From Struthio camelus (lineage: Eukaryota > Chordata > Aves > Struthioniformes > Struthionidae): a DNA stretch of 64,000 nucleotides. Made by a program: the position numbers and the translations under genes. The stretch spans positions 65,180,911-65,244,910 of the forward strand of contig NC_090942.1 of the NCBI RefSeq assembly GCF_040807025.1, in the 5' to 3' direction. This document shows positions 6,301 through 30,442 of this stretch, piece after piece. The notes below the pieces were generated by a model. That model saw nothing but the letters and a program-made list of their open reading frames with translations. It did no database searches and had not been told where the DNA came from. How positions within the stretch are numbered: the stretch's first letter is position 1; every line of letters starts with the position of its first letter.

Positions 6301-9300
6301 ATTTTGTATGGGTCACATTAAATTTTTTCCAGCTACAGCTGCCAACTTACAAAATGAGGCTAGGGCTGTAATTCTTCCTGTCTGTCTGTCTTGCTGTTTG
6401 ACAGTAAGCTTTGGCTTAGGATCTATCTCATCCTATTGAAAATAATGATTTTTTTTTTGTTCCTTTTGAGACCCCATGCCAATAGTAATGTGTATTTCTA
6501 AGGTGCTGGCTTGTGGGCTATTCGTTACCCAGTCTCTTACTCTTCCATCAGGAATGCTGTAAGTGTGTAAGAAGCAGCACTTCCCATTTTGTTTTCATTC
6601 TGGCTTTCTGATCACTTTTACTGGTAGAGGTGCTGCACTGTACAGTTGTATCCGCGTGCAGGATCTTCAAGGTCTAATTGCATCTAATTCTCAACCCTGC
6701 TTTTTCTTCTCCCTTGAGATTGATTTACGCTATGAAGCCAGGAATCTGGAACGCTTCCGACAAAATTTCTTGGATGTTGATTTTGTGAAGTTCCCAACGC
6801 CCCTTCACCCCTTGGTAACAAGAGATGTTCTAGTGGAAACGTTTGAGGTAAGAATAGCAGGGTCTGGGAATGGTGGTAGCAGTGAGATGGCCCTTAGGAG
6901 ACCATGCTAATGTACCTCCTTTGAGAAGGAGAGATCAGAGGCAGGAGGATGCTGTCTTTCTCTTATTTGCTTAATGAGATTGATGTCCTTCCTTTAGTGT
7001 CTCTTCTAGTCTTTGTTCATAAACAGTGCATTCCAAAAAAACAGGTGGCAGACACAACTCCCTGTAGAAGTGAACGCATGGCCTGAAGCCAAAGCCAACC
7101 AGCAGTGTGTCCAGCCACCCTGTGTTTGCCTGTGCTTTCCACTCCAGCACTGTGCTCTGGCTCTCCTCTGTGGTGGGTCACAGAGCAAGGAACTTGCAAC
7201 CTGACCCTTTCTGATGCTTGCTTTGCTTCCCTTGTGGATGTTTGAGTCAGTCCAAAGCTTGTTTTCTCAGCCTTAGTTTTCACGTATGCAGTCCTGGTGA
7301 GGATATTTCTGTCCTGGGCTATTTCACACTCTTTCCAAAGAACAAATCGTTTTCTTCTCCCATGTTCCCTATCGCAGTGGGTACAGCCTCCGTTTTTAGG
7401 GTATTTTTATTCTCTTCTCCCCCCCACTCTTTGCAGAAGTTGGTAGAGGTGTGGTTGAAGGGTGTGACCCAGGGTATTTTTGACTCCAGCTCTGTCTTTG
7501 TTTCAGGAGAGTGAGCCTATTTCCCAGTACCTGCATGCAGAGATTGCCACAGAGCTGAGGCAGAGACTTGCAAAGATGGGCATGGACATGCTCCTAAAGA
7601 TGGTAGGCACCATCAGCAGGGAGACCTGCTTGTACGCAGTAGGGACCTCAGGTGCAATTTGATCAGTGCATTGCTTAGGGAAACCCACTAATCCATTTAG
7701 TGAATATTCATGTGTTGTGCAAGTGCAATACAGTGCAACGTAATTAGCAAATATCATGCTCTCTGAAGAAACTGTGGATGCAGCCCACAGGGAAACTGCT
7801 AGCCTAGTTCACTCACTTGTATCCATCTCTCCTCCAAAACTACCATTTTCAAGGAGGTTAAAAAAGTTGCACATACATACAATATGTGTATTGTATGTAT
7901 AATCGCAATGGTTATGAGCAATCAAAAAAAGCAAACCAAATTCCAGTAGTAGAAAAGAATTAGCAATGGAACAACATGAAGGTAGTATGTAAAACAAGTT
8001 CCTGTTTCTTAAATACCTTGTGCAGTCCTAGTCCTTCCCTTCCATGACCTTCCATCTCAAAGCCTGTAATAGAATTAGAAAAGGTGCAGAGGAGGGCAGA
8101 GAGGATGACTTCTGGAGTGGAATGGCTTCCACACAGGAATGATGAAATAGATTGGAACTCTTAACTCTGGAAAGCAGAGAAGCGAGGGCAGCTTGTGACA
8201 GATATACGCATTCATGGGTGTATGACAGTGAATATGAATCTGTTATTTATGGTTTCTCAAAAGAGAACAACAAGGAGGCCACAAACAAAGCTATCAGAAG
8301 GCACTTTTTCAGACAACACCCAAAAAGCACTCCTCTTTTTTCATGCTGCTCTAATTTACGTGGCAATTAGACAAATTTGCAGGAGAAGGAAATCCATCAA
8401 ATATGAAGATAAGCCCCCTCGGGGCAGGAAGCCCTGCAGTGCCAGGTTGTTAGGAGGGTCAGCGGGGAGTATCACATTGTGTTTGCCCTGCTGTTACTCC
8501 TTTCTGCTGTTAGCCATCAGCAGAGGCAGAGGAGTGCTACATACCTCTGTCTCCTCTTTTCTTTTAACTTACTACAACGGTATAAAAAAGCGAGGAGAAT
8601 GTAGGTTGATGTGCTGGAGTAAACAAATCCTTAGTCATTCACTAAATCCCATACCAATGAATGGCAAAGGACCTATTCTTACTGCACTTCTCTTGGACAC
8701 TGGTGCGCCTTGGCCATCTAGTTTAGGGTTAATTGCTGAAGAGCAATTCCACTGTTCCGTGCTGGAACTGCTTGCTGTCTTACCAGACCTCTAGCAAATG
8801 TGTATGATTGCTTCACGCAGCTCTGCTGACGCCTCCAGGCTGACTAGCACCCATGCTTTTTCAGCACAGCTTGTCCTCAGCAGAAGTTATTCGCTGTGCT
8901 GTTGCATAGGGTGATGCATGTTAGTAATGGTGGGGAACAGACCAGAAATGAAATGGTATGATTTGCCTGGGAGTTTGGTATGGGCAGGTTTGGTTAGAAT
9001 GAGCTGCTCTAAGACTTGTCCTTTCTCCAGATCTTTGTTGACAACTTTGTCCATGCTGACCTGCACCCTGGGAACATCCTGGTCCAAGGCATGGCCCACA
9101 TCAGCGCAAGCAGCAAGGAGCAGACAGCCATCGTGGACCTGTGTGACACACTCGTGGTGGAAGTGCAGCCGCCCCACGGGCAGCTCTGCCTGGTGCTGCT
9201 GGATGCGGGGATTGTGGCGGAGTTGCAGACTGCTGACATGCAGAACTTCCGAGCGGTTTTCACAGCTGTGGTTCAGGGCCAGGTGAGGGCCGATATCACA

Positions 9301-17313: not shown

Positions 17314-20300
17314 TCACTCTAGTAGTGATGCCCGGAGCGTCAAAAGATTCTGGTCTCTGAGGTATTGCTGGCGGTCACAGTGTTTTTGGCCTTCCTCTTC
17401 CATCTTCTGGTGGGAACGGTCTCTGTTCTGGAACGCTCTCCTTTTCGCAGCCTGGTGCTGCTTTTGCTGCCTGTCCTGCTCCTGTGATTCTTGTTCCCAC
17501 ATTTCTTGCCGTGACTGTATTCTGCTTCTGAGCAAATCCTACATAAAAATAATGAAAGAAAAGACATTTACTATTGTACAGCCAGCTTTCATGCTGAATT
17601 TAATCTACAACTATTACTGACAAAACTTAGAATTAGGTATAATAGTGAATTTGCCCTAACCAGCTTGTTGTATACAGTTGATAGGTAGTTCCCCACATGG
17701 GCTTCAACTGTGGAAATTCATCCCTTGCATACAGAAAGACGACTTCTGCCATAGAGATGGGGAATTTTCCTTCCCAATTTTACACGTGTTTAAAAAAGTC
17801 GCCCTTTTTTTGCCTGCATCTCCAAATGATAATTATATTGGATGGAAAACAAGTGAAAAATAAATATTCTAGGTGGTACCACTGCTGAAAACACAGTGGT
17901 CCAGGAAAGGCATTTGTGAAAGAGCCCATACCAGTCTCTCTTTCTCGTGTTCAAAGTTGCTTTCATTGTGTTCTGCGAAAAATGCCTCTCTCTCCGAACG
18001 CTGTGTCTTTAAGAACTGTAGCCTCTGACTTGCCTTTCTCTTCTCCTCCTCTAGCAAGGACGATTCCTTCCTGCTTCTCTCTGCCATGGCAGCTTGGAGC
18101 AGTGCCATGCGCTGGGAAGCTCTGTCTTTTTGCTCTTGCTGTTTCTCCAACACTTGCAATGTTCTCTGAAGCAATCGCTGCCTATTTCCAAAGTAAAATT
18201 GCTCAAATTTCTCAGAAGGAAAGAGAAGAGAAAAAACCCCAAACAAACTGTGCATCAGTCAGACATTCTGGCATTCTGACAATCTGGGGTCAGCTAATAT
18301 TCCAGGATGCTTTGTTAGGTTATGAATGTTAAACCTGTGTCCTGAACAGAGTTGGCCAAAATAAAAAATGGGTTGCCAGCTACCTGCAGTTGTCTGTTTA
18401 TCTGACTACACAGCCTGGTGCGGCCATGTGTTCTTGGTCCTGAAGACCAGGAAGGAGGGGAACGGATTGTGGACGCAGGACTGTCTCGATAGCGGAGGCA
18501 TAGGAGAGGTGGAAGGAGGTGGGTCACAGGGGCAAGGATGGGCTAAGCATAAAGGGACTGTGGGGCTGTGGTCAGGGAATGGGGGTTTGGAGGCAAAAGG
18601 ACTCTGGGGCTGAGGATGAGACTGAAGAGAATTTGCCCTTGGAACTAACGCAAAAGGCTATGGGACCGTGCATACCCACTCACCCATACCTTAGGCCTGC
18701 GTGTTACTCCCTCTCCCCCCACCTTTTTTTTTTTTTTTTTAAATAATTTACATGATTTTTCTTCCACTAGTGAATCACTAAGACCATCATGCACAGACAT
18801 GCACCAGCATAAGGCACAATGTGTGACATTTAGAGACTAAGAGCACTAGGGAGCAGACATTATCAACCATCTGATATTTGCTACAAGGAACCAGTTAGCT
18901 TCTAGATTTTGCTAAAACCTTCCATCTGCTTCTCAAGTTCTTCTTTGCTCTCCCTCCCACATCATTACCTCTGGTTGTCCCTGAGCAGCTGGCGTCGGAC
19001 ACCATCTGCCTTTTGCTGCTGCTCCCTCTTCAGCTGCCTCTGTTCCTCTTGGTGCCTTTTGTGCTCCATCTTGACTTCATTAAAATCCATCTCTTTCCGT
19101 TTTAATTCAGATGCACTCTTAAGGATTGATTTCTAAGACAAAAAAACAAAACAAGGCAAAAAAACCCTAAACCCTTAGTCCCATCAATATGTTTTTCTAA
19201 TGCAAACTGTAAACCTACAAAACTGGAATAGCTTAAGTCCTGTAATGCCATTCCTGAGCTCTGGAAGCCATACTGCCACATGCATAATATAGTGTCACTT
19301 GCCATCCATGAAAAGGCTGGGTCTGATGCTAAAACCCATATAAAAGATTAGGCTTAATCAACAAAGAGGTGCCTGAAAAATCCAAATATTTTAAGAGGAG
19401 TTCTTTTCAGGTCAGTAGGCATTGCTAATCCAGTTGTTCCAGTGCTGAGACAGTGCTTAAAACTGCCTATTCTTTGTGTCAGCTTCTGGATTAGATGGAA
19501 AATACAGGTCCCGACCACAAATTGTATTAAAGATTCCTTATCACATTTCATTAGAAAGAGGGATATCTGCCTCCCTCTGACCAAATGCAAAATCATCCTG
19601 AAGTTCTGTGCAGGTGCACTAACTCTTCACTTCCTATTGCATAAGATTTCTACCCACAGTCAAGCAGTGCTTGTGTTTTCTTCGAAATAGCTGCATTTTA
19701 GTGCTGAGCAGTGTTCCTAATTTGCAGTTGTAAATGCACTCTGCTGTGTAAAGAGATGAAGGAGCATTCACAAGGCTTCTCTTCACAATCATTGCACAAC
19801 ATTTACTTCTTCTGTACTCCTCGCAAGGCCTTCTATGAGGGAAGTGGCAAGGAAACATCCTATACTTAATCACCAAAATTTTGACATACATTTCAGTTTA
19901 CATTGCTAGAGCTGATTGGGGCTAGAACAAGCTTCCCCAAATTATTTTGCTGTCAAGAGTGAATTCTCCCTTCTTCTACTCCCAGCCACAATAAGCATGT
20001 TCTTGATGTTAGACAAGACAAACAGCTCCTTCCAGTTCTTTCCTCAGGGTATTTCTAATGTCACAAGCTGGGAAACACCTCTGGACCTTCAGATAACGCC
20101 CACTCTCTTCCTTCTTATTCTGACTATTCCTGTCAGTCTCATGTAGCATCTAGACTGATTTTTCTTAACAACTGGATCTGTATGGCTTCGCAGAGGCAGT
20201 AAGTATCTTTGTTCTTCAGTGTATTCCTATTTCTTTGCAAAAACTGCACCTCCTGGGTGGCTTGTTGTGTTTAACAACTTATAGATGGAAAAATCAAAGA

Positions 20301-23300
20301 CAGAATCAAAGTAGGTGGGAGATGTATGAACGGTATTATCTAGCAGGTAGAGGACTGGCTTGGTCCCATCCCAGCCCTGCCATGCGCTCTCCCTGTGGCA
20401 TTGGGCTGGCCAGCTAGCCTTTCTCTGTCTTGCTTTCAGTCTCTTTAAAGATGGAATAATTCTTTCCTGCCTTGCAGAGCTGTCTGAAAGGATTGGTTAG
20501 AAAGGATCTAAAATGAAAAACTCTATCAAAATGCTAAGTAATAATACCAGAAGTACCTTGTTCCTGTAAAGCACTGATTCCTAAGTGGAAACCTTATGTT
20601 TCTATTTATGCATATCCATTATGCTATGTATGCATAATTTTAAAAAGACCTTTTAGAAAGAGATCAACTGAGACTATGTTCTCACTGTATTCTAATAACA
20701 CATGACATACATAAATACATCCTAATAGCTAAAAACCAGCTGGGACCCAATACTTACTGTAACGCCCTTCTCTTTTACAAGATTTAGAAGATTTGTGGAT
20801 CTCTTAGCCTGCATATTGGAGATACTGTGTGGTCTCTGCACACGTAGAGCTGATTTGATGGTCAGGCTGTGTGTCTTTAGTGATTGATCTACTCGGTCAA
20901 AGAATCTTTGGTGCCTGAAAGGACCCAAAGCACTAGTTCTCGAAGGGCTCCTCTGAGAATGCTGGATTGCAGTTTCTGCCACTCTGCACTCAAAGAGACC
21001 TTTCAGACAAATTGGGGACATACCAGGTTATAGGCAGCTTATAAAAAGAAAGCAAATAGAAGAAAAGATGTGTTTGCATAAAATGTATTCGAGCAAGACT
21101 TTTATAACTAAGTACCAACATTTTTCTCTGAGAAAGCGAGATATTTTTAATCACCACAGAACAGGTCCCAGCTTTCAAAAAATAAGCTTGCTGTTACAAG
21201 CAGGAGTTTTACCTGATAATACAGATCACTGATTGCACTTGCAGCCACTCGTTCTGAGGGGTTATTTGCATGGTATTTTGCATACAGAGACAAGCTTCTT
21301 CTGCTAATGCTCTGAGACAAGTCATTAATTTCTTGATAATGCAAAGCCTGAGCTTTAAATTCTGCTGAGAGACAGGATAAATAAGCTTGGGTGCAACACT
21401 GTGCTAACACAGTTATGTAGCTTTTGGGTAACAGAATAAGGGCAGCGCTTGCTTGACCCTTTCTGCTAAAGACAGAGCAGACCTGAGCAGGAGACGTTGC
21501 ATGTAATGCCAGCTGAGAGGAAATGTGCACTTCTTTCCACTTTCCTTTCTCCCTCTAACACCAGTTACACAGAGGAGTACACAAGCAGTAACATCTGAAC
21601 AAAGATTTAGGCTTTTAGAATCCTTATTAAAAGGCCTGTATTTGTCACACAGATAGCTTAAATGAGAGGAGTACTGCTTAGAGTAGATTTGATTAAAAGC
21701 TTTTTAAAATCATGATCCAATCCCTTTTGAATAAATGTTTACTTTGATGACGTTATAAAGCAGTACTTTTCAGCACAAAGAAGAGAACGAGTGCTTCCTG
21801 CAGAACAGTCCTGCTGAAATCTTTTGCCATAGGCAGTCATAGTTGATATTACAGATGGATTTTTGAAGTCAAGGAAATTTTAGATTAGTAATATTCATAG
21901 TGAGCATTAAGATAAAGGTTAAACCCCCCCAAAGCTGCTACCGTAGTAGCTATCAGGGCCAAAAACCCCAATTTCCATCTGAGAATACTTCCATATTGAG
22001 AAGGTGAACAAATCCTCAAACCATACTACTGTTAATATCAAAAAATAAATATTGCTATATTATGCTGGCAATATTTGGCATAACGTTATGACAATTTCTT
22101 TTGAAGCACCAAGAACTATGGTGCTAGAAAAGAACCAGAAAAGACCTTAGACATGATGGCCCACTGCACTGATTTTGTGTGGCAAAACTTATAATTGTAT
22201 AAAACAACTACAATTTCAGTACCATGATCGTGTTTAAGATGAGCCTCAGTATTGTCTTTCTGCTGTCTGCTGTGTGCTTCTTCCTTGTGTACTGACTCCA
22301 TTAACCAGCTGTCTGTATTGACAGCAGTATTGACCATAGTATGAGCCATCTCCCTCTGAGGATGCTAGAAACAACAAAAAATGCTATCAAAATCCAAACC
22401 TGATAAGGAAAAGAACATAACTTACAAAATAAGTTGCTGTTTTGCAACTGAAGCTTGAGAAAGAATAAAAAAAATGTGTGAGGGGGAAGTTCTTTATTAA
22501 AGAATAATAGCTCTCGCAGGGCAATAGAGAAAAGCTAGGCAGTAGCTGGTGCACATTAACCTCCTCCTGACTGATCCGCATCCACTGCCCTTTCACAAAC
22601 GCCAAAGCAACTACAAAAGATCACAAAAGTCTCTCTTGGTCTTTGATACAGCAAGATGGCACCTCTGTTATGGGTAGAGAACTATCTTAATAGTAGTATG
22701 TCAGGGACTGCCTTGGTATGAAGGAATCCTTACCGTAATGCTTACCTGGCGCAAAGCCTTCTTCTCTGACACTTTTTCCTGCCTTTATTTCCTATACGCA
22801 GAGAGGCAGGATGAAAAGGGACTGGGCTCTGCTATGCTTCTGATATTCTGCACCCGTGGAAGAACTTCTAGGAGTCTATGCCAGCCAGTGACAAAGAATG
22901 GCAGCTTCTAACACTTTTCCAGATCAAAGGATCAGGAGGACAGTGGAGAGCTAAGTCTCTCCATTCTCTAGGGGGCATGGATAAGGGTCAAGCCCAAAAC
23001 CTCTAGTCATTTTTCAGTATCAAGAGCAGAAAGCATCATGTAACAGTGCAGAAACTACACAAGTATCAGACCACATATTAATGCAAGAGCTGGTGTGAAG
23101 CACTTGTTACCTTCTTAGGTTCTATAACCTCATTGTCCTCTTCCATGCAAGACTGAACATCTTTTGGCACATTTTCAGTCTTCAATCTCTTCTCTTCTTT
23201 TTTCTCTTCCTTTCTGGAAACACTTTCTGAAATGGAGATCTTCACTTCAGACAGCTGCTTTTCTATTTTTCTGCTCAGCTCTTCTTTAGTCAAGTTTGTT

Positions 23301-26300
23301 CCCGGGATGAGGGCATCTTCTTGTTGTACATTGCTCCTTGTAGGCTGTGTTGGTGCCCAGGCTGCAAGGCAGCAGTGGGGAAGTGAGATACACCTATAGC
23401 TGCACTTGACACACGGCTGAATCGAATACAGACCCCCTGGCCAGTAGTCCAGGTACGAATGATCCTGTCTGCAACAGCCTGAGGCTCTGTAACCCGGTGC
23501 CACAACGTATGGATAATCTGAGCTTGAAGCTATCACCATCTGCCTGGCTGCTAAAGGCATTTGCAGTTCTAGGATGATGCGTTCACTTAAGGGCAGAGGG
23601 ATCCGCAGAACTTGGTCAGAAGTTACCTCCTTAGTCTGCCCGTTCCAGAAATTCACAAGCACTCCCCTTCTGTTGTGTGCTGTGCATATTAAATAAAACA
23701 GAATGGCAAAGAATGTATGAGAAGCATGTCAACCTGTGTGATTTATCTCTTAGAAGCAAGGCAATAAAAGAATAGCTTGTGCTACATACAATTTGGTAAC
23801 CATTTTTTCTTTATAGGCTAAAGATTTGACCCTCTTTTGGACTTGCTAGGAAGAGACAACAGGTGAACAGCAGTAGCAAAACTCTCACTGGTCACAGTGA
23901 GCCAGGATTTTACCCTGTATGAAGCTGGAAACTAGACTAACAGGTGATCAGGTCAGTATTCAAGAGGGCCAGGAACATTTTTCTCCTTTTCTCCTTGTGT
24001 CAGGGGGAACGTTCTCCACCCCCCCCCCCCCCCATACTTTTTTAGAAAGCCTCCATTCACAGAATAAAGCAAGAATTCTAATTTGGGCTAATTCTGGAAG
24101 CAGCATTAATTCTGGGGCTGAAAAAAAAAACAGGCTGCTTAGTGCCAACAAAAAAAGAGAAAAGGAAGAGAAACCAAGCAGCAGTGGGTAAATTCTCCAC
24201 AGCTGAGACTGTTCTCTTTTCTGTATAGTGGCTAGCAAGTGTGGTGAGCCTAGCACTAATTGGAAAGCCAATACCTCGTACCTAAACGTGTCTCCTTGTC
24301 CTCCATAACCATTAACACAGTGCCTGGGCCAAAGCGCTCAGCTTTAGCCTCCCATGGTGCCAAGACCCTGTCTCCTGGAGCAAGTGGCTGTTGCCTGGCA
24401 TCTTCATAGTGAAGAATGTCATACAGAGGCGTTTCCTGCATGCGAAGCTGTACCTTGCCTTTCAGCGTGCGACTTTTGTCAAATTCAATTAGAAAGCGTT
24501 CCCCGGAGCCCTACAAGAGTAAAACATGCAGTTTGCAAGACAGACATCTGGGCCCAATTAACGGTCAAACATAAGTGCTAAGAGGGAAGTGGCAGAAATC
24601 CCAGGAAGCAGAACGTGATCTGTGAATGTAGTGTTCCTTCTCTACCAGGTTTTTCATTGTACTGTGTCCATATTGAACTTAAAAAGTAATTAAAAAGCTG
24701 GGGCTTACAGGGTTGACAGCCTTCTAGCCTTCTCTTCCCTTGTTTTCAGACTTAGGCTTTAGTAGGCTTATCTGGCTCAGAGGAACACAATTGGCATGCT
24801 AAGGAAGATCCCTATGAGTCCATCAGGAAAAGAGTTACCAAAATAAACTGCTGGGTATGATGCAGTTAGTTACATGGTAACCAAAAGCATTACAAACCAG
24901 TAAAATATCCTAACTGCCATAAATCTGACTGCTTTAATTTAAGCCTCCAGCACTGGGTGTGGGGCAGAGATTCCATGACCAAAATCTCACCCCCTCTGCA
25001 TATCTATAAATGCAACATACACAAATAATGCTGTCAGCCCCTACCCCAGCTAAAGTCACTTCATGTCTTCAGCTGTCTATAGCTGTTCCTCCCTTCACTG
25101 GAGTTTACAGCTACCCTTAGCTATACTAGCATCACTGTCTGTTTAAACTAACCTGTGAACTGGGAAATGAACTGGATTTTTAGAGAGAGTTGCAGGGGCC
25201 ATGTTCTGTCTGGCATCCTAAATCATCTCACAAATCCCAGGAACACAGAACGAAGAAAATAAGGAAAGCTCTCAGTCCAGCAAGGAGGAAGTAGTCCCTG
25301 GGGGCAGACATTTTGGATTACCATTATTAATGCTATTTAGCTTTACTGCTAGGTAAAACTAGGTGAAAATAGACAACAGGGATATAAGGGGCCTATTTTG
25401 TTCGACTGCTTCTGAATAACAACTCATTATAACCACTAAAGTGGATTGATTTCCAAGTTGCTTCTTCCTGCAGGACTCCTCACAGTAAACAGCCAGTCAT
25501 CCTCAGAAAACAGATGAAATAGGATGTGGGGAGAAAAGTGCGATTATGAAGTATGCTGTACAACCTACAGCAGGGACACGGAGCTGGGGAAGGGATGCAA
25601 AAGGACCGGAAAAAAGACACACAGGACTTAGGGAGAGCCTTTTACAAGCTTAGTTCCAGGTAAACACCTACCTTCACCTCTTTCACAATGTGGCCTCGGT
25701 AGTAATAGCCATCAGTTTCTCTCCTGGCCAGCACACGGGCCCCCCTCATGAAATTAGAAGCCTTTGGGGATGAATGGATTAAACTTCCTTCTGCTGAGGA
25801 TATCAAGGGCATACAAAGGAAATCTGGGCGCCACATGAAAACAGGAAAGCTGCAGAAAACAGAATACAAGTAAGGAAGGCCCTGGCAACAGAATTTCTGC
25901 ATGTTGCTGCAGTGAACTCAAACCAAATCCACTTGGGAGCCCCCTTCCTCTAATAACTGTCTTGGTTTCCTAGCTTTTCTTCTTCTCTGCATTATCAAAG
26001 TGATCCATCTACAGTTTTTGAACTTACTCTGTTGCTGGACATCCTGACAGCAAAGAGCCACAGGAATCTTTATTAGTGGTGTGACAACACTGGACACGCG
26101 AGATGGATGTGGAGCTTATCTGGAGGGGGGAAGGAGGAGAGGGAAGCAGAAGATGAACATGATTTCTGTTCCTAAATCCTTAAACAGGAATACTATTTAT
26201 AAAATTGAAATTTACTTTCCAGTATGTTACTTCTCTTTCTGTTTTAATTCTTACATCCTGTCTTTTGTTGTTCTATGCATTTTATTTGTAAGCGCCTCAC

Positions 26301-29165
26301 AAGCGTTCTCTCCTATTTTAAGAGATCAAGATTTAAAAGAAGGAATATTAAGAAAATAAAATATACAAACTATATGATAAAAACCCTTGTGTTTCACTCA
26401 CCTTCTTTCTATTTAGCTGCTAGATATGTAGCTGGTGAACCACTGTTTCTTCGGTCATGATCAGGCATGTTCAAACCACAAGGTGCCATTTCAAGTACAC
26501 TCAAAGCTCTAGTAGATATTCCTTGTTGGCCTATCTCAAATGCTATCATCATTTTGTTCAATTTTGAAGGAGGCACTAAGTATGTGATTTTTAAATCTGG
26601 ACAGTTTAGTTTCTTACTGATTATTATGGCAATCAGTTAATTGATTTTAGTATAGAGCTCTGAAGCTGGAAAATGCACCAATTTCTCAGGACAAGGCACA
26701 ACTGCAATAGAATGGAGACAGAGTGGGGGTTCTGGGGCTGCCTCTCACATCACCAGGAGCATATGCTCAGCACTAACATAGGAGTATCAATGCCCTTGGT
26801 TTCCTCCCAGTCAATCCGTCAATCTGTCCCTGGCTCTCAAATGGTAGCTTATGGACAGCTAGTGGTCACATGCACATTGGCTCTTCCTGCAACGAGCTTC
26901 TTATGCAAGTATCCAAACTCTGTAAGCAAGCAAGAGTTGTAAGGTCAAGACAGAACCAAGGTGAGGATTCAGTCTAGGAGGACCAAGTTGCCTTTACAGG
27001 TCCAAGTCACCAGTGGAGCCATGTGGCCTGGGCAGGAGGATGGAAAAAGGACCTAACGGCTGAGCAGCATGTGAAACATTTGAGAAGAGCAATGACTCAG
27101 GGAAAAGCATGCCAGAGACTACGAGAAGAGAGAAAAACTAAACACAAGGGACTGGGGAGGCTGAGTTGGCAACAAAACAATGAACCTTATAATAAAGCAT
27201 TCAAATGTTATGGAAAAAGATAAACTTGTATTGCATTAATTGAGTGTCAAGTAAAAAAAAAAAAAAAAAGCTTCAGTGGTTTCCCATTATTTCCTGTAAA
27301 CTGTTGCTGAAACTGCTTTAGGGCTGTTACAAGACTGTGAAGAAGAGTAAACTTAAAATGCCTTAGCTGCAAGGAGGCCCACAGAGTGGACAGGCAAAAC
27401 CCACGCTGTATCAGCACTGAGGATTGTTAGAGGTAGCAGTTGAGGACGTTAAATAAATAACAATATCATGCAAATCAATTATTTAAAAGGCAGTATTCAG
27501 CCACCCCTGCCAATGGGTAAAACAATACAAATCCATGAATCAGGGGGCACTGGACGTAGGCAAAGCTGTACAGTCAGCTAGCAAAGAAAATGCTTCACTT
27601 CTACCTGTTAGTGTTACCTCTTTCCAAGTGCTAGTCTGTAAAGCTTAGTGAAATCACTTTACAAGCCAAATCCAGTTTTGCAGAACTAAATGGAGCTAAA
27701 CGAAGATATACCTGAATTTGACCCCACATGTTCGTCACAATGCCTGTTGCACAGGAGCTACATGAACCGCTCCCTTTCCTACCAAGCAGGGATCTAAGGA
27801 ACAAGCAGTGCACATTTAGAAGGTGGATTTACCAAATTGGGATTTCAGGTATAGCCTGTCACAGAGATGCCAAATCTATTTTAAAACTCTGTTCACAGAC
27901 AACTTTGCTCATAAGCAGCCAGGCAAAATAAGGTTACCTTTCTAGAGAGTCATAAAAATTTTCCTCTTCACTCATTCTACCTGGTGAAATGCCATCCAAT
28001 AAAGATTCAGGAGGAACTAGTTCTTGGGCAATCTTCTATTGGTGGCATACCTTCTCAGAAGCAACATGAGGGAGCCTGATGACTTGAAAGGATCCCCCAG
28101 ACTGTCTGGCTACTTTTTCCATTGTTTGTTGCTTGCCTTTTTCATAACCATCTGAATCTCCCCAAAGGCATACGACATGTACTGGATGCAACTTGTTCTC
28201 CACAAGAATTTGACAGATTTGCTCTGACTCTTGCTCTGGGAGCATGTTGGTGAACAGATACACTTCCTCGCAGGCTGGGTCTTCAAATGCCACAGCCAAG
28301 CCACTTGCAGCATCTGTGCCATTCTCAAACTGCAGGGATCGAATCCAGGCTGCAGCTTCAGTGACACTGCAGAGTGAACATTTGACCAAGCAGTCGCACC
28401 ATTTTAATACCTATGGGGGGGAAAAAAAAGACAAAAAAGAAAAAGCCTCCTCCCCATTCCAAACTTGCAAATCTTTCCTAACGTGGGACAGATGTGAGAT
28501 TCTGTATTTAGTATTTCTGTGTTTCCCGATGTCATCCTCTATAGTAATGAAGGAATTCCCCACATCCTATGACAAAATCCCTGTGGTCAGGTAGGGCTGG
28601 AGAAGGTCAGGCAGCCTCTCCACAACCTATACATGCACTGTAAACTGCACGTCTTTTCCCCCTCAGAGACAGCAGTCTTATCACTTCCTCCACTGCTGAC
28701 ATTCCCTATACTTTACAGGCTTTTCTCATTCTTAGCTGAATGACAATCAAAGCAGCTGTTCTCAGCTGGGAAAAAGCTTTGAAATTTGCTGCTTTTACTG
28801 CACATTTGAAGAAGGACTTGTGTGCCCTAAAGCTCGTCTACTTTTCCAGCTATAGTGACCAGTCTAAAGAAAGACATTGGCTCTATTTGCAAACCTACGG
28901 TCGCTAACGCCTTTTCACTGTGACTGCTTTAAAGCCCCCTGTGACTCCCTGGCGGCGTTACCTTGCTGGAAAACGCTATGACATTGAACGCGGCCTCGGT
29001 GAGCCTGGCGGCCAGCTGGAAGAGAGTCCGTACGAGGTGCTCCTTCAGGTACCGGACCGCGGTGGCCGCGGCTCCCCGCACGCCGACCACAAAGGTGACG
29101 CCCTGCCCCCGGGGCTCGTCCGCCACCGCCGCCGCGGCGCGGCCGGCGCCAGCGAGCCCCGCCAT
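17314..29165 (-). CDS. C11orf16/VWA3B-like protein: VWA-like domain + DUF4537 + coiled coil, 11 exons, one in-frame TAG
   Basis: Coding exons in transcript order: 29165-28962, 28410-27938, 25849-25672, 24510-24282, 23679-23111, 22364-22223, 21364-21213, 20988-20758, 19132-18969, 18181-17932, 17538-17314. Each junction is GT-AG and the phase is kept through all ten, giving 938 codons. About 22-185 is a VWA-like fold (GVTFVVGVRGA, FNVIAFSSK, YLFTNMLPE) lacking the DxSxS metal site. About 263-400 carries two Tudor-like units (GARVLARRETDGYYYRGH; GDRVLAPWEAKAERFGPGTV; VLVNFWNGQ), as in human C11orf16. A Cys-rich patch follows near 429-465, then a conserved VNTAVNTD motif. About 727-938 is a Glu/Lys/Gln/Arg-rich coiled coil. 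Codon 193 is TAG. The ATG at 29165 has G at -3 and +4. The function is unknown; a cilium-related role is inference. Human has no such gene here as far as I recall. Confidence 0.8.
20340..20520 (+). mobile_element. MIR-like (CORE-SINE) remnant in intron 8 of the C11orf16-like gene
   Basis: The order of blocks follows the MIR consensus: AGGACTGGCTTGGTCCCATC (box-B side), CAGCCCTGCCATG, GGCATTGGGCTGGCCAGC, a CCTTTCTCTGTCTT-rich part, AAAGATGGAATAATTCTTTC, then CTTGCAGAGCTGTCTGAAAG. Divergence is high, as expected for a pan-amniote MIR copy. Ends are approximate. Confidence 0.65.
27938..28410 (-). other. Exon 2 of the C11orf16-like gene, interrupted by an in-frame TAG
   Basis: The exon reads VLKWCDC...RLPHVASEKVCHQ, then TAG at 28038-28036, then KIAQELVPPESLLDG and SEEENFYDSLE in the same frame. 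It ends at donor AAAG|GTAACC. The leftover two bases (AG) join the first base of exon 3 (C) to give Ser, which restores the frame used by every later exon. A possible inner donor GAGAAG|GTATGC lies at 28051/28050, but an intron from there to the AG just before the downstream coding part would be only 15 nt, too short to splice. The TAG could be a one-base change of TGG or CAG, a read-through codon, or a sequencing or assembly error. Confidence 0.75.
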
Positions 29166-29308
29166 AGCTGAGAGGGGCAACCGCACCGGCCAGCGCTATG
29201 GGGCGGGGGGCGGCACAGCCCTCTTCCTGCTTCGCCGGGGGCTTCCCGAGCGCCCCAAGCTCAGCTTGCCCGCGGACAGCCCCGCACTGAGACCTGGCGG
29301 CGCCGGCC

Positions 29309-29352
29309 GTTACTCCGCGCGTGGCCGGCCGTTACTCCGCGCGTGGCCGGCC
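29309..29352. repeat. 22-bp tandem direct repeat in the divergent promoter
   Basis: Two identical units beginning GTTACTCCGCGCGTGG and ending CCGGCC, back to back. They are CpG-rich and lie between the start codons of the C11orf16-like gene and NDUFB2, nearer to the former. Confidence 0.9.
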
Positions 29353-29395
29353 CTTACCGCCTCAGCGCGCGGCGCCAGAGGGCCCGCCGTTCCCC

Positions 29396-29408
29396 GTTGC
29401 TACGCAAC
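29396..29408. promoter_or_regulatory. RFX X-box-like palindrome
   Basis: GTTGC-TAC-GCAAC is a perfect inverted repeat with a 3-base spacer and fits the X-box pattern GTNRCC(N0-3)RGYAAC closely. It lies about 230 bp upstream of the ATG of the C11orf16-like gene and 550 bp upstream of NDUFB2. X-boxes bound by RFX factors commonly drive ciliary genes, but no binding is shown here. Confidence 0.5.
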
Positions 29409-29954
29409 CAGACGCCGTGGGCTGAACCAACTGGGCCATCTTGGGGGGAAGGGCCTTTTATTTTTAAAGCATCTTTCTTACGGAGGAGTAATGCCTGCGA
29501 CGCCTGCTCCCCCCACCCCACTCTGAACTGAGGCGTTTTTGCCCCAGAAGGTCACTGCAGTCCTTCTCTTGCCTTCTCTGTGGGCAGTGTCATTGTTTCG
29601 GGCTGAACAGCAACCCCCGCCGAGGACTTGGTTCCGCCTGCGCCGCTCCCAAGGGCTGAGAGCGGCGAGGGGGGGGTCACAGATATACTTGTGCTAACAG
29701 CGAGGAACCCCAGGAAGCCCCGAGGCGCGGGCAGCCGCGGCAGCGGGAAGGACCCTGAGTTACGGCTGCCGCCGCTGCCGCCTTGGGGCGGAGCGCTTGC
29801 CCAGTTCCCCTTCTCCCCGCCTCAGCCCCCTCCGCGGCCGGAGTTGGTAGGCGCCAGGCGGCGCGGCGGGCCAATCGCCGCGGCTGTTGTTGGGAGGCGG
29901 CCGGGTGACATTGGGGGGGAGGGCAGGAGGGTCGGTACCGGCGCGGCTGCCATC

Positions 29955-30442
29955 ATGCTGGCGGCGCTGGGGCGCTCGGCGGCGGCGCGGCTCCTCCGGG
30001 CCGGGGTCAGCGGCGGCGGCGGCGGCGGCGCGACCGGGCTGCGGCAGTGAGTGCGGGGGCGGCGGGGCCGGGGCGGCGCGGCGCGGCGCGGCGCGGTGCG
30101 GGCGGCGGTGGCCGGGAGTGACGCGGTGCCGGCGCGGTGTGTTGCAGCGCGGGCGGCGAGGTGCACATCGAGCCGCGGTACCGGCAGTTCCCGCAGCTGA
30201 CGCGGGCGCAGGTGATCCGGGGCGAGATGCTGTCGGGCTTCATGTGGTTCTGGATCCTGTGGCACTTCTGGCACAGCTCGGACATGGTGCTGGTGAGGCC
30301 GGCGCGGCGGGAGGGAGGGGGGTGCGGGCCGGGCCGGGCCCCGCTCTGAGCTCGCCTCTCGCCGCAGGGTCACTTCCCCTACCCCGACCCCGCGGCCTGG
30401 ACGGACGAGGAGCTGGGCATCCCCCCCGACGACGCGGAGTAG
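29955..30442 (+). CDS. NDUFB2: NDUFB2, complex I accessory subunit (AGGG/B2), complete
   Basis: Coding exons 29955-30046, 30148-30292 and 30368-30442 encode 103 residues (human 105). Exon 1 gives an Arg/Ala-rich presequence-like N-terminus with a Gly run. Exon 2 carries the near-invariant [17 protein letters not shown] and the single membrane segment [12 protein letters not shown]. Exon 3 ends with [18 protein letters not shown] and an acidic tail. The product is a supernumerary subunit of the membrane arm of mitochondrial NADH:ubiquinone oxidoreductase. Introns are tiny (101 and 75 bp) and GC-rich. The ATG at 29955 is the only one in frame ahead of the conserved part. It is transcribed away from the C11orf16-like gene and towards BRAF. 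Confidence 0.97.

Follow-up and report, generated by a model that had tools for sequence, protein, structure and literature searches.

A conserved ostrich gene beside NDUFB2, an apparent paralogue of C11orf16 with VWA and tandem-Tudor regions

A 64,000-nucleotide stretch of the ostrich genome (hereafter the window) contains, beside NDUFB2, a real and conserved gene, named copy A here, that is already annotated in databases and undescribed in the literature searched. Sequence comparison identifies copy A as a paralogue of C11orf16 (copy B) and not as the C11orf16 orthologue. In its protein a VWA fold is followed by a tandem-Tudor-like DUF4537 region and, towards the C terminus, by a helix of ~200 residues. 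We are close to certain of its identity and history, namely that A and B are duplicates and that the joint VWA and DUF4537 layout is ancestral; the explanation as a whole, which adds a scaffolding role and RFX-linked ciliary expression, we consider fairly probable. C11orf16 is an uncharacterised human gene, and its best-preserved relatives indicate its origin from a VWA and tandem-Tudor protein with a long helical tail in many full models. Copy A offers a way of testing ideas about DUF4537 proteins, is one more vertebrate gene whose mammalian counterpart was not found, and presents a case in which one domain apparently decays in each of two duplicates independently. The literature searched held nothing on the VWA-DUF4537 combination or on copy A, and the retrieved portions of PMC8986115, PMC11855755, PMC9281040, PMC12310455, PMC9663930, PMC4312118 and PMC2837379 give no description of it.

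Gene model and chromosomal setting

The original prediction placed a gene of eleven exons and 938 codons between ADCK2 and NDUFB2. The position and the exon number stand, but we could not arrive at 938 codons. A model drawn from splice signs alone had 926 codons and a single in-frame TAG; the corrected model, built from the protein sequences of relatives, runs on the minus strand from 29165 to 17314 and has 11 exons and 884 codons without internal stops, with GT/AG introns throughout and compatible phases at every junction. The DUF4537 exons were located through stop-to-stop frames, a Pfam scan of ten single frames and a PF15057 search of the 1.45-Gb ostrich genome, which returned two matches at E ≤ 0.001: copy A and one on contig C5.

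All exons lie on the minus strand. Exon 1 (28962..29165) opens with the start codon at 29165, encodes the first part of the VWA (FVVGVRGAAA, with the metal-site motif lost) and is found at 100% in the NCBI ostrich model P0001. Exon 2 (28051..28410; 120 codons, phase 0/0) supplies the remainder of the VWA, and exon 3 (26028..26119), present in P0001, is missed without the relatives. DUF4537 begins in exon 4 (25672..25849) with the first Tudor, VLARRETDGYYYRG, continues through GDRVLAPWE in exon 5 (24282..24510) and ends at FWNG in exon 6 (23111..23679), which also encodes a helical linker and a Cys-rich stretch. Exon 7 (22223..22364) carries an AVNTD motif common to some C11orf16 proteins, exon 8 (20758..20999) was defined from the relatives' proteins, and the long C-terminal helix begins in exon 9 (18969..19132), runs through exon 10 (17932..18181) and ends with the stop codon in exon 11 (17314..17538).

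NCBI annotates the ostrich gene as P0001, a 730-aa protein called ‘CFAP45-like isoform X2’. This isoform skips the in-phase exon 2, as does turtle model P0082, and the skipping is possibly a splice switch that would remove most of the VWA. Relatives of copy A appear in databases as uncharacterized, trichohyalin-like, inner centromere protein-like or C11orf16 homolog; recognizing the gene would correct the misleading names among these, together with CFAP45-like, in many bird and reptile genomes.

The left neighbour is an ABC1-kinase match that we take as ADCK2 (9007..9285, C1:65189917-65190195, plus strand; 33.2 bits), whose single internal TAA suggests that it probably spans an intron edge. 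On the right lies NDUFB2 (30161..30433, C1:65211071-65211343, plus strand). The gene order is thus the ABC1-kinase match (+), copy A (−), NDUFB2 (+) and, just beyond the window, a RAF-type RBD match (−), presumably BRAF. Two passerine proteins, P0064 (Pitangus) and P0117 (Turdus), fuse BRAF to pieces of copy A, and these are most likely annotation errors spanning adjacent genes.

Two candidate segments were set aside. An exon at 28410-27938 had hinted at a pseudogene by its in-frame TAG and was dropped because the relatives mark the sequence past 28051 as intron; the intron stretch 28050-27938 (PESLLDGISPGRMSEEENFYDSLE) is protein-like and in frame with exons 2 and 4 except for the TAG at 28038-28036, and among the 256 proteins compared it had no match at E ≤ 1e-3 and one at E 0.14. 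An acceptor chain using 21364-21213 joins in phase, yet none of the 256 proteins matches it.

Domain architecture

DUF4537 (PF15057) is recognized at residues 255-381 with 77.5 bits against a curated cut-off of 27. The VWA assignment of the original prediction holds at the level of fold: Pfam VWA_3 scores 22.0 bits in the ostrich protein, below its curated 27, a value that is reached in the eagle and turtle orthologues, and structure comparison identifies a VWA fold, which rules out a chance match. By sequence, the VWA alone matches only ITIH chains in the PDB (E 0.02-0.27), and its best profile match is ITIH4 (E 1e-11). The VWA domains of inter-alpha-trypsin inhibitor heavy chains and of calcium-channel alpha2-delta are among the nearest folds. 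ITIH-type proteins are extracellular. Wild-type ITIH chains carry the metal-binding (MIDAS) DxSxS motif in the aligned stretch, whereas ostrich copy A, which reads FVVGVRGAAATA, does not.

In the DUF4537 region, Foldseek finds the tandem Tudors of 53BP1, BAHCC1 and SETDB1, with the 53BP1 matches superposing loosely (rmsd about 7), and the sequence profile of the first Tudor finds the Tudor of PHF19/PHF1 at E 1e-4 to 7e-4 in short chains. These likenesses, to 53BP1 and BAHCC1 in fold and to PHF19 in sequence, are what could make copy A a chromatin reader, with a tandem Tudor that binds methylated lysine like 53BP1 and a VWA and helix that recruit partners. The alignment of Tudor 1 with PHF19 (VLARRETDGYYY vs VLCR-WTDGLYY), however, places a Glu of the copy A family where PHF19 has a Trp, presumably part of its aromatic cage. 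This substitution speaks against plain methyl-lysine reading, many Tudor folds have a different ligand or no ligand at all, and we regard a methyl-lysine reader as distinctly unlikely.

The Cys-rich patch of the original prediction was also recovered; its long coiled coil corresponds to a long helix. In the eagle model the C-terminal tail is a single helix of about 200 residues, and by a crude purpose-made measure its hydrophobic heptad repeat is not significant (663 of 1000 shuffles score as high), so a classical coiled coil is not demonstrated. Residues 592-884 have no match at E ≤ 1 among PDB chains, and the name ‘CFAP45-like’ is thus without support from the PDB search. CFAP45 also has a long charged helix; to our knowledge it has neither a VWA nor DUF4537.

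Between these regions, a loose AVNTD pattern occurs in 82 of 116 copy A rows and in several copy B proteins (alligator, paddlefish, tarpon, shark, ground squirrel), and is absent from all four invertebrate rows checked. Such a short motif may serve in docking.

Duplication, ancestral layout and erosion of the VWA domain

By calling the gene C11orf16-like, the original prediction named the right family; the gene is not the C11orf16 orthologue, as the ostrich has C11orf16 on contig C5 in addition to copy A on C1. In a tree of 51 rows over 170 columns of the DUF4537 core, copy A is set apart by one branch (100/94) and copy B by another (100/100), each with sharks, rays and bony vertebrates; an earlier tree, the source of the A and B group names, gave supports of 98 and 100. 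A constraint joining the A and B copies of sharks and rays was rejected (p-AU 5e-54). Invertebrate rows fall outside both clades, and the five such rows do not form one group. Copy A has its orthologues among the LOC proteins of sharks, amphibians and other sauropsids. C11orf16 (human 11p15.4) shares with copy A the DUF4537/tandem Tudor, the motifs VLAR, VLAPWE and FWNG, in some proteins AVNTD and, in the ostrich, a DENN-gene neighbour. It differs in its separate clade (100/100), its chromosome and its tetrapod rows, which have no VWA; copy B rows of shark, ray, paddlefish, lungfish and several teleosts have one, as copy A does. Mammalian C11orf16 rows measure 418-509 aa, 418 also being the lower length limit of the search.

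Among 5.8 billion proteins, 123 matched the ostrich query at E ≤ 0.001 (lengths about 509-1620 aa; the 7992 candidates sharing most words were scored, and the best 120 of the 123 matches are listed), the top match being P0001. A shark C11orf16 query gave 81 proteins, made up of vertebrate copy B and relatives from amphioxus, tunicate, snail and sea anemone. VWA and DUF4537 occur together in four of the four invertebrate relatives scanned: Branchiostoma P0137, Phallusia P0134, Biomphalaria P0155 and Nematostella P0153 have the domain order of copy A and a similar length (843-1017 aa) and, unlike the ostrich protein, an intact DxSxS. Because these amphioxus, tunicate, mollusc and cnidarian proteins already join the two domains, the layout is ancestral, a new fusion is rejected, C11orf16 is a shortened copy, and the original description of a gene that ‘fuses’ them was misleading. 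The two domains stood together in one protein before the vertebrates, and a duplication then produced copies A and B.

That the ostrich model falsely joins an adjacent VWA gene to a C11orf16-like gene is scarcely credible. The 1.9 kb between exons 2 and 3 and the NCBI ostrich isoform without exon 2 could be read in that way, but single models hold VWA and DUF4537 in turtles, crocodile, squamates, amphibians, sharks and gar, as in the four invertebrates. Two separate genes in orthologues had been named in advance as the finding that would count against the prediction; in turtle, crocodile, lizard, newt and shark, VWA and DUF4537 stand in one model.

The chromosomal neighbourhood bears on the kind of duplication. 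DENN-domain matches lie 68-78 kb from copy A and 179-200 kb from the copy B match, and the DENN genes at C1:65.12 and C5:23.06 Mb, which we take to be DENND2A and DENND2B, are mutual best matches among the 12 of 15 DENN places that were compared. Mutually closest neighbours at the two loci are as expected of a whole-genome-duplication pair. The split predates the jawed-vertebrate crown and postdates the invertebrates, and paralogous neighbours, one pair, are found at both loci. An old small-scale duplication would fit a comparison confined to this one DENN pair, with a B-side neighbour as far as 179-200 kb away; the location of the copies on two chromosomes, each near the mutually closest DENN paralogue, and a split older than sharks and younger than the sampled invertebrate lineages make it very unlikely. 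Copies A and B most likely arose in the early vertebrate genome duplications, jointly with the neighbouring DENN-domain genes.

Among rows covering the motif, DxSxS is intact in five invertebrate rows, three shark or ray A rows and gar A, and is lost in every tetrapod A row. In copy B it is present in Heterodontus, two rays and paddlefish; the second Ser is missing in lungfish and teleosts, and tetrapod rows are without the VWA. Loss of the motif in tetrapod A implies that any metal-dependent partner binding is gone there and that the VWA is perhaps becoming dispensable. The loss of the metal motif in tetrapod A rows, and the absence of the VWA from tetrapod C11orf16 and from most bird A models, are new here.

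For the ostrich itself, this erosion raises the reading that the VWA exons are relics and that the main product skips exon 2, leaving a tandem Tudor and helix as the working protein. P0001 skips exon 2, the metal-site motif is lost, and most bird models resemble the shorter form: of 76 bird A rows (several isoforms of one species and two rows classed as bird-like included), 6 match exon 2 in full, 11 in part, and 5 have exon 1 with full exon 2, against 27 of 31 other sauropsid A rows with exon 2. On the other hand, exon 2 is open in the ostrich and 75-85% identical to its full counterparts in six bird models (crane, eagle, kiwi, stork, harpy, shearwater), slightly under the 80-91% of the DUF4537 exons in the same rows, and models in GC-rich DNA often miss or misplace first exons, so the low bird count is a lead and not a proof. 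We judge a relic VWA unlikely and keep the three-part protein as the product of copy A.

Copy A persists in sharks, gar and lungfish, in amphibians, and in turtles, crocodiles, squamates and birds. Mammals number 0 among the 118 species-labelled rows of the best 120 of 123 protein-collection matches to ostrich A. A search at shorter lengths (about 189-602 aa, 82 rows) gave four mammal rows, all C11orf16, with ≤40% identity over ≤43% of the query, and a further 21 rows from three protein searches are of sauropsid A or B type. No mammalian copy having been found in the protein collection, copy A appears lost, or decayed past detection, in mammals. The original suggestion, that the gene may be an ancestral form or a paralogue which mammals have lost from this locus, came close: copy A is a paralogue that predates the jawed-vertebrate radiation and keeps the ancestral layout. 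Teleosts may have lost A too; all six teleost rows in the tree are copy B, while gar has a copy A row. Ostrich copy B (C5, about 23.257-23.264 Mb, L005-L006) has DUF4537 exons and weak helix-region matches, one with stop codons, which suggests that its tail may be decaying. Searching 70 kb around it by tblastn with the VWA-bearing shark B protein P0119 and with copy A revealed no VWA exons, although an extreme remnant could escape such a search; the sole VWA-region matches (E 0.5-1.9) lie on the strand opposite to the copy B exons.

Shared promoter and proposed function

The start codons of copy A and NDUFB2 diverge across a 789-bp interval (29166..29954; 69% G+C, CpG o/e 0.84) that is likely a shared promoter. 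It contains an RFX-type X-box-like site, GTTGCTACGCAAC (29396..29408), a perfect GTTGC-N3-GCAAC located 231 bp from the copy A start codon. Perfect sites of this type number 1189 in the 1.45-Gb ostrich genome and occurred in 17 of 20000 simulated intervals; the reversed-pattern control (129) contains a CpG and is an unfair comparison. A looser pattern, RYYRYYNNNRRNRAC, has 11 sites in the window against 13.75 expected, none of them in the promoter, and the strict pattern with one mismatch has 2 against 2.32 expected, no excess over chance, so the candidate is distinguished by its exactness and place. A turtle model that reaches into the promoter region reads HGVWLPGNG where the ostrich has HGVWLRSNG, so this stretch is conserved; the codons of the turtle permit an X-box. 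Close upstream of ostrich copy B, no X-box-like site was seen. Promoters of genes that play no part in cilia can also contain X-boxes, and NDUFB2 could be the gene that the candidate site serves. RFX factors act through the X-box on ciliary genes, according to the portions retrieved of PMC2375033 and PMC5838959.

On balance, we predict that the copy A product is a non-enzymatic intracellular scaffold. Given that its metal site is lost and that the Pfam scan assigns it to no enzyme family, docking of partners is the most likely activity: the VWA face and the Tudor pair would dock partners, and the charged helix, roughly 30 nm long, could act as a spacer or join subunits. The X-box in the shared promoter suggests RFX-driven expression, which makes ciliated cells or sperm the likeliest site; that copy A acts there is a serious possibility to which we give somewhat less than even weight.

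A wider and more speculative reading, which we hold only tentatively, would unite these observations in an unnamed VWA, tandem-Tudor and long-helix family that works in motile cilia or sperm, predates the cnidarian-bilaterian split and was duplicated with the vertebrate genome. The metal-binding VWA would be eroding in parallel in the two copies, in B through a weaker motif in lungfish and teleosts and loss of the domain in tetrapods, and in A through loss of the motif in tetrapods, of the domain in many birds and of the gene in mammals. Human C11orf16 would then be what remains of a larger axonemal adaptor, and a leftover A transcript could survive as the human antisense RNA NDUFB2-AS1, which we take to start opposite NDUFB2.

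The literature search found no paper with both C11orf16 and ‘ciliated’. In the retrieved part of PMC9663930, one lung-cancer signature includes both C11orf16 and DNALI1, which weakly supports a link to ciliated cells, and in that of PMC12310455, VWA3B, a protein outside the C11orf16/DUF4537 family, is detected in cilia. C11orf16 is also named in a figure legend of fold-matched proteins in the part retrieved of PMC8986115.
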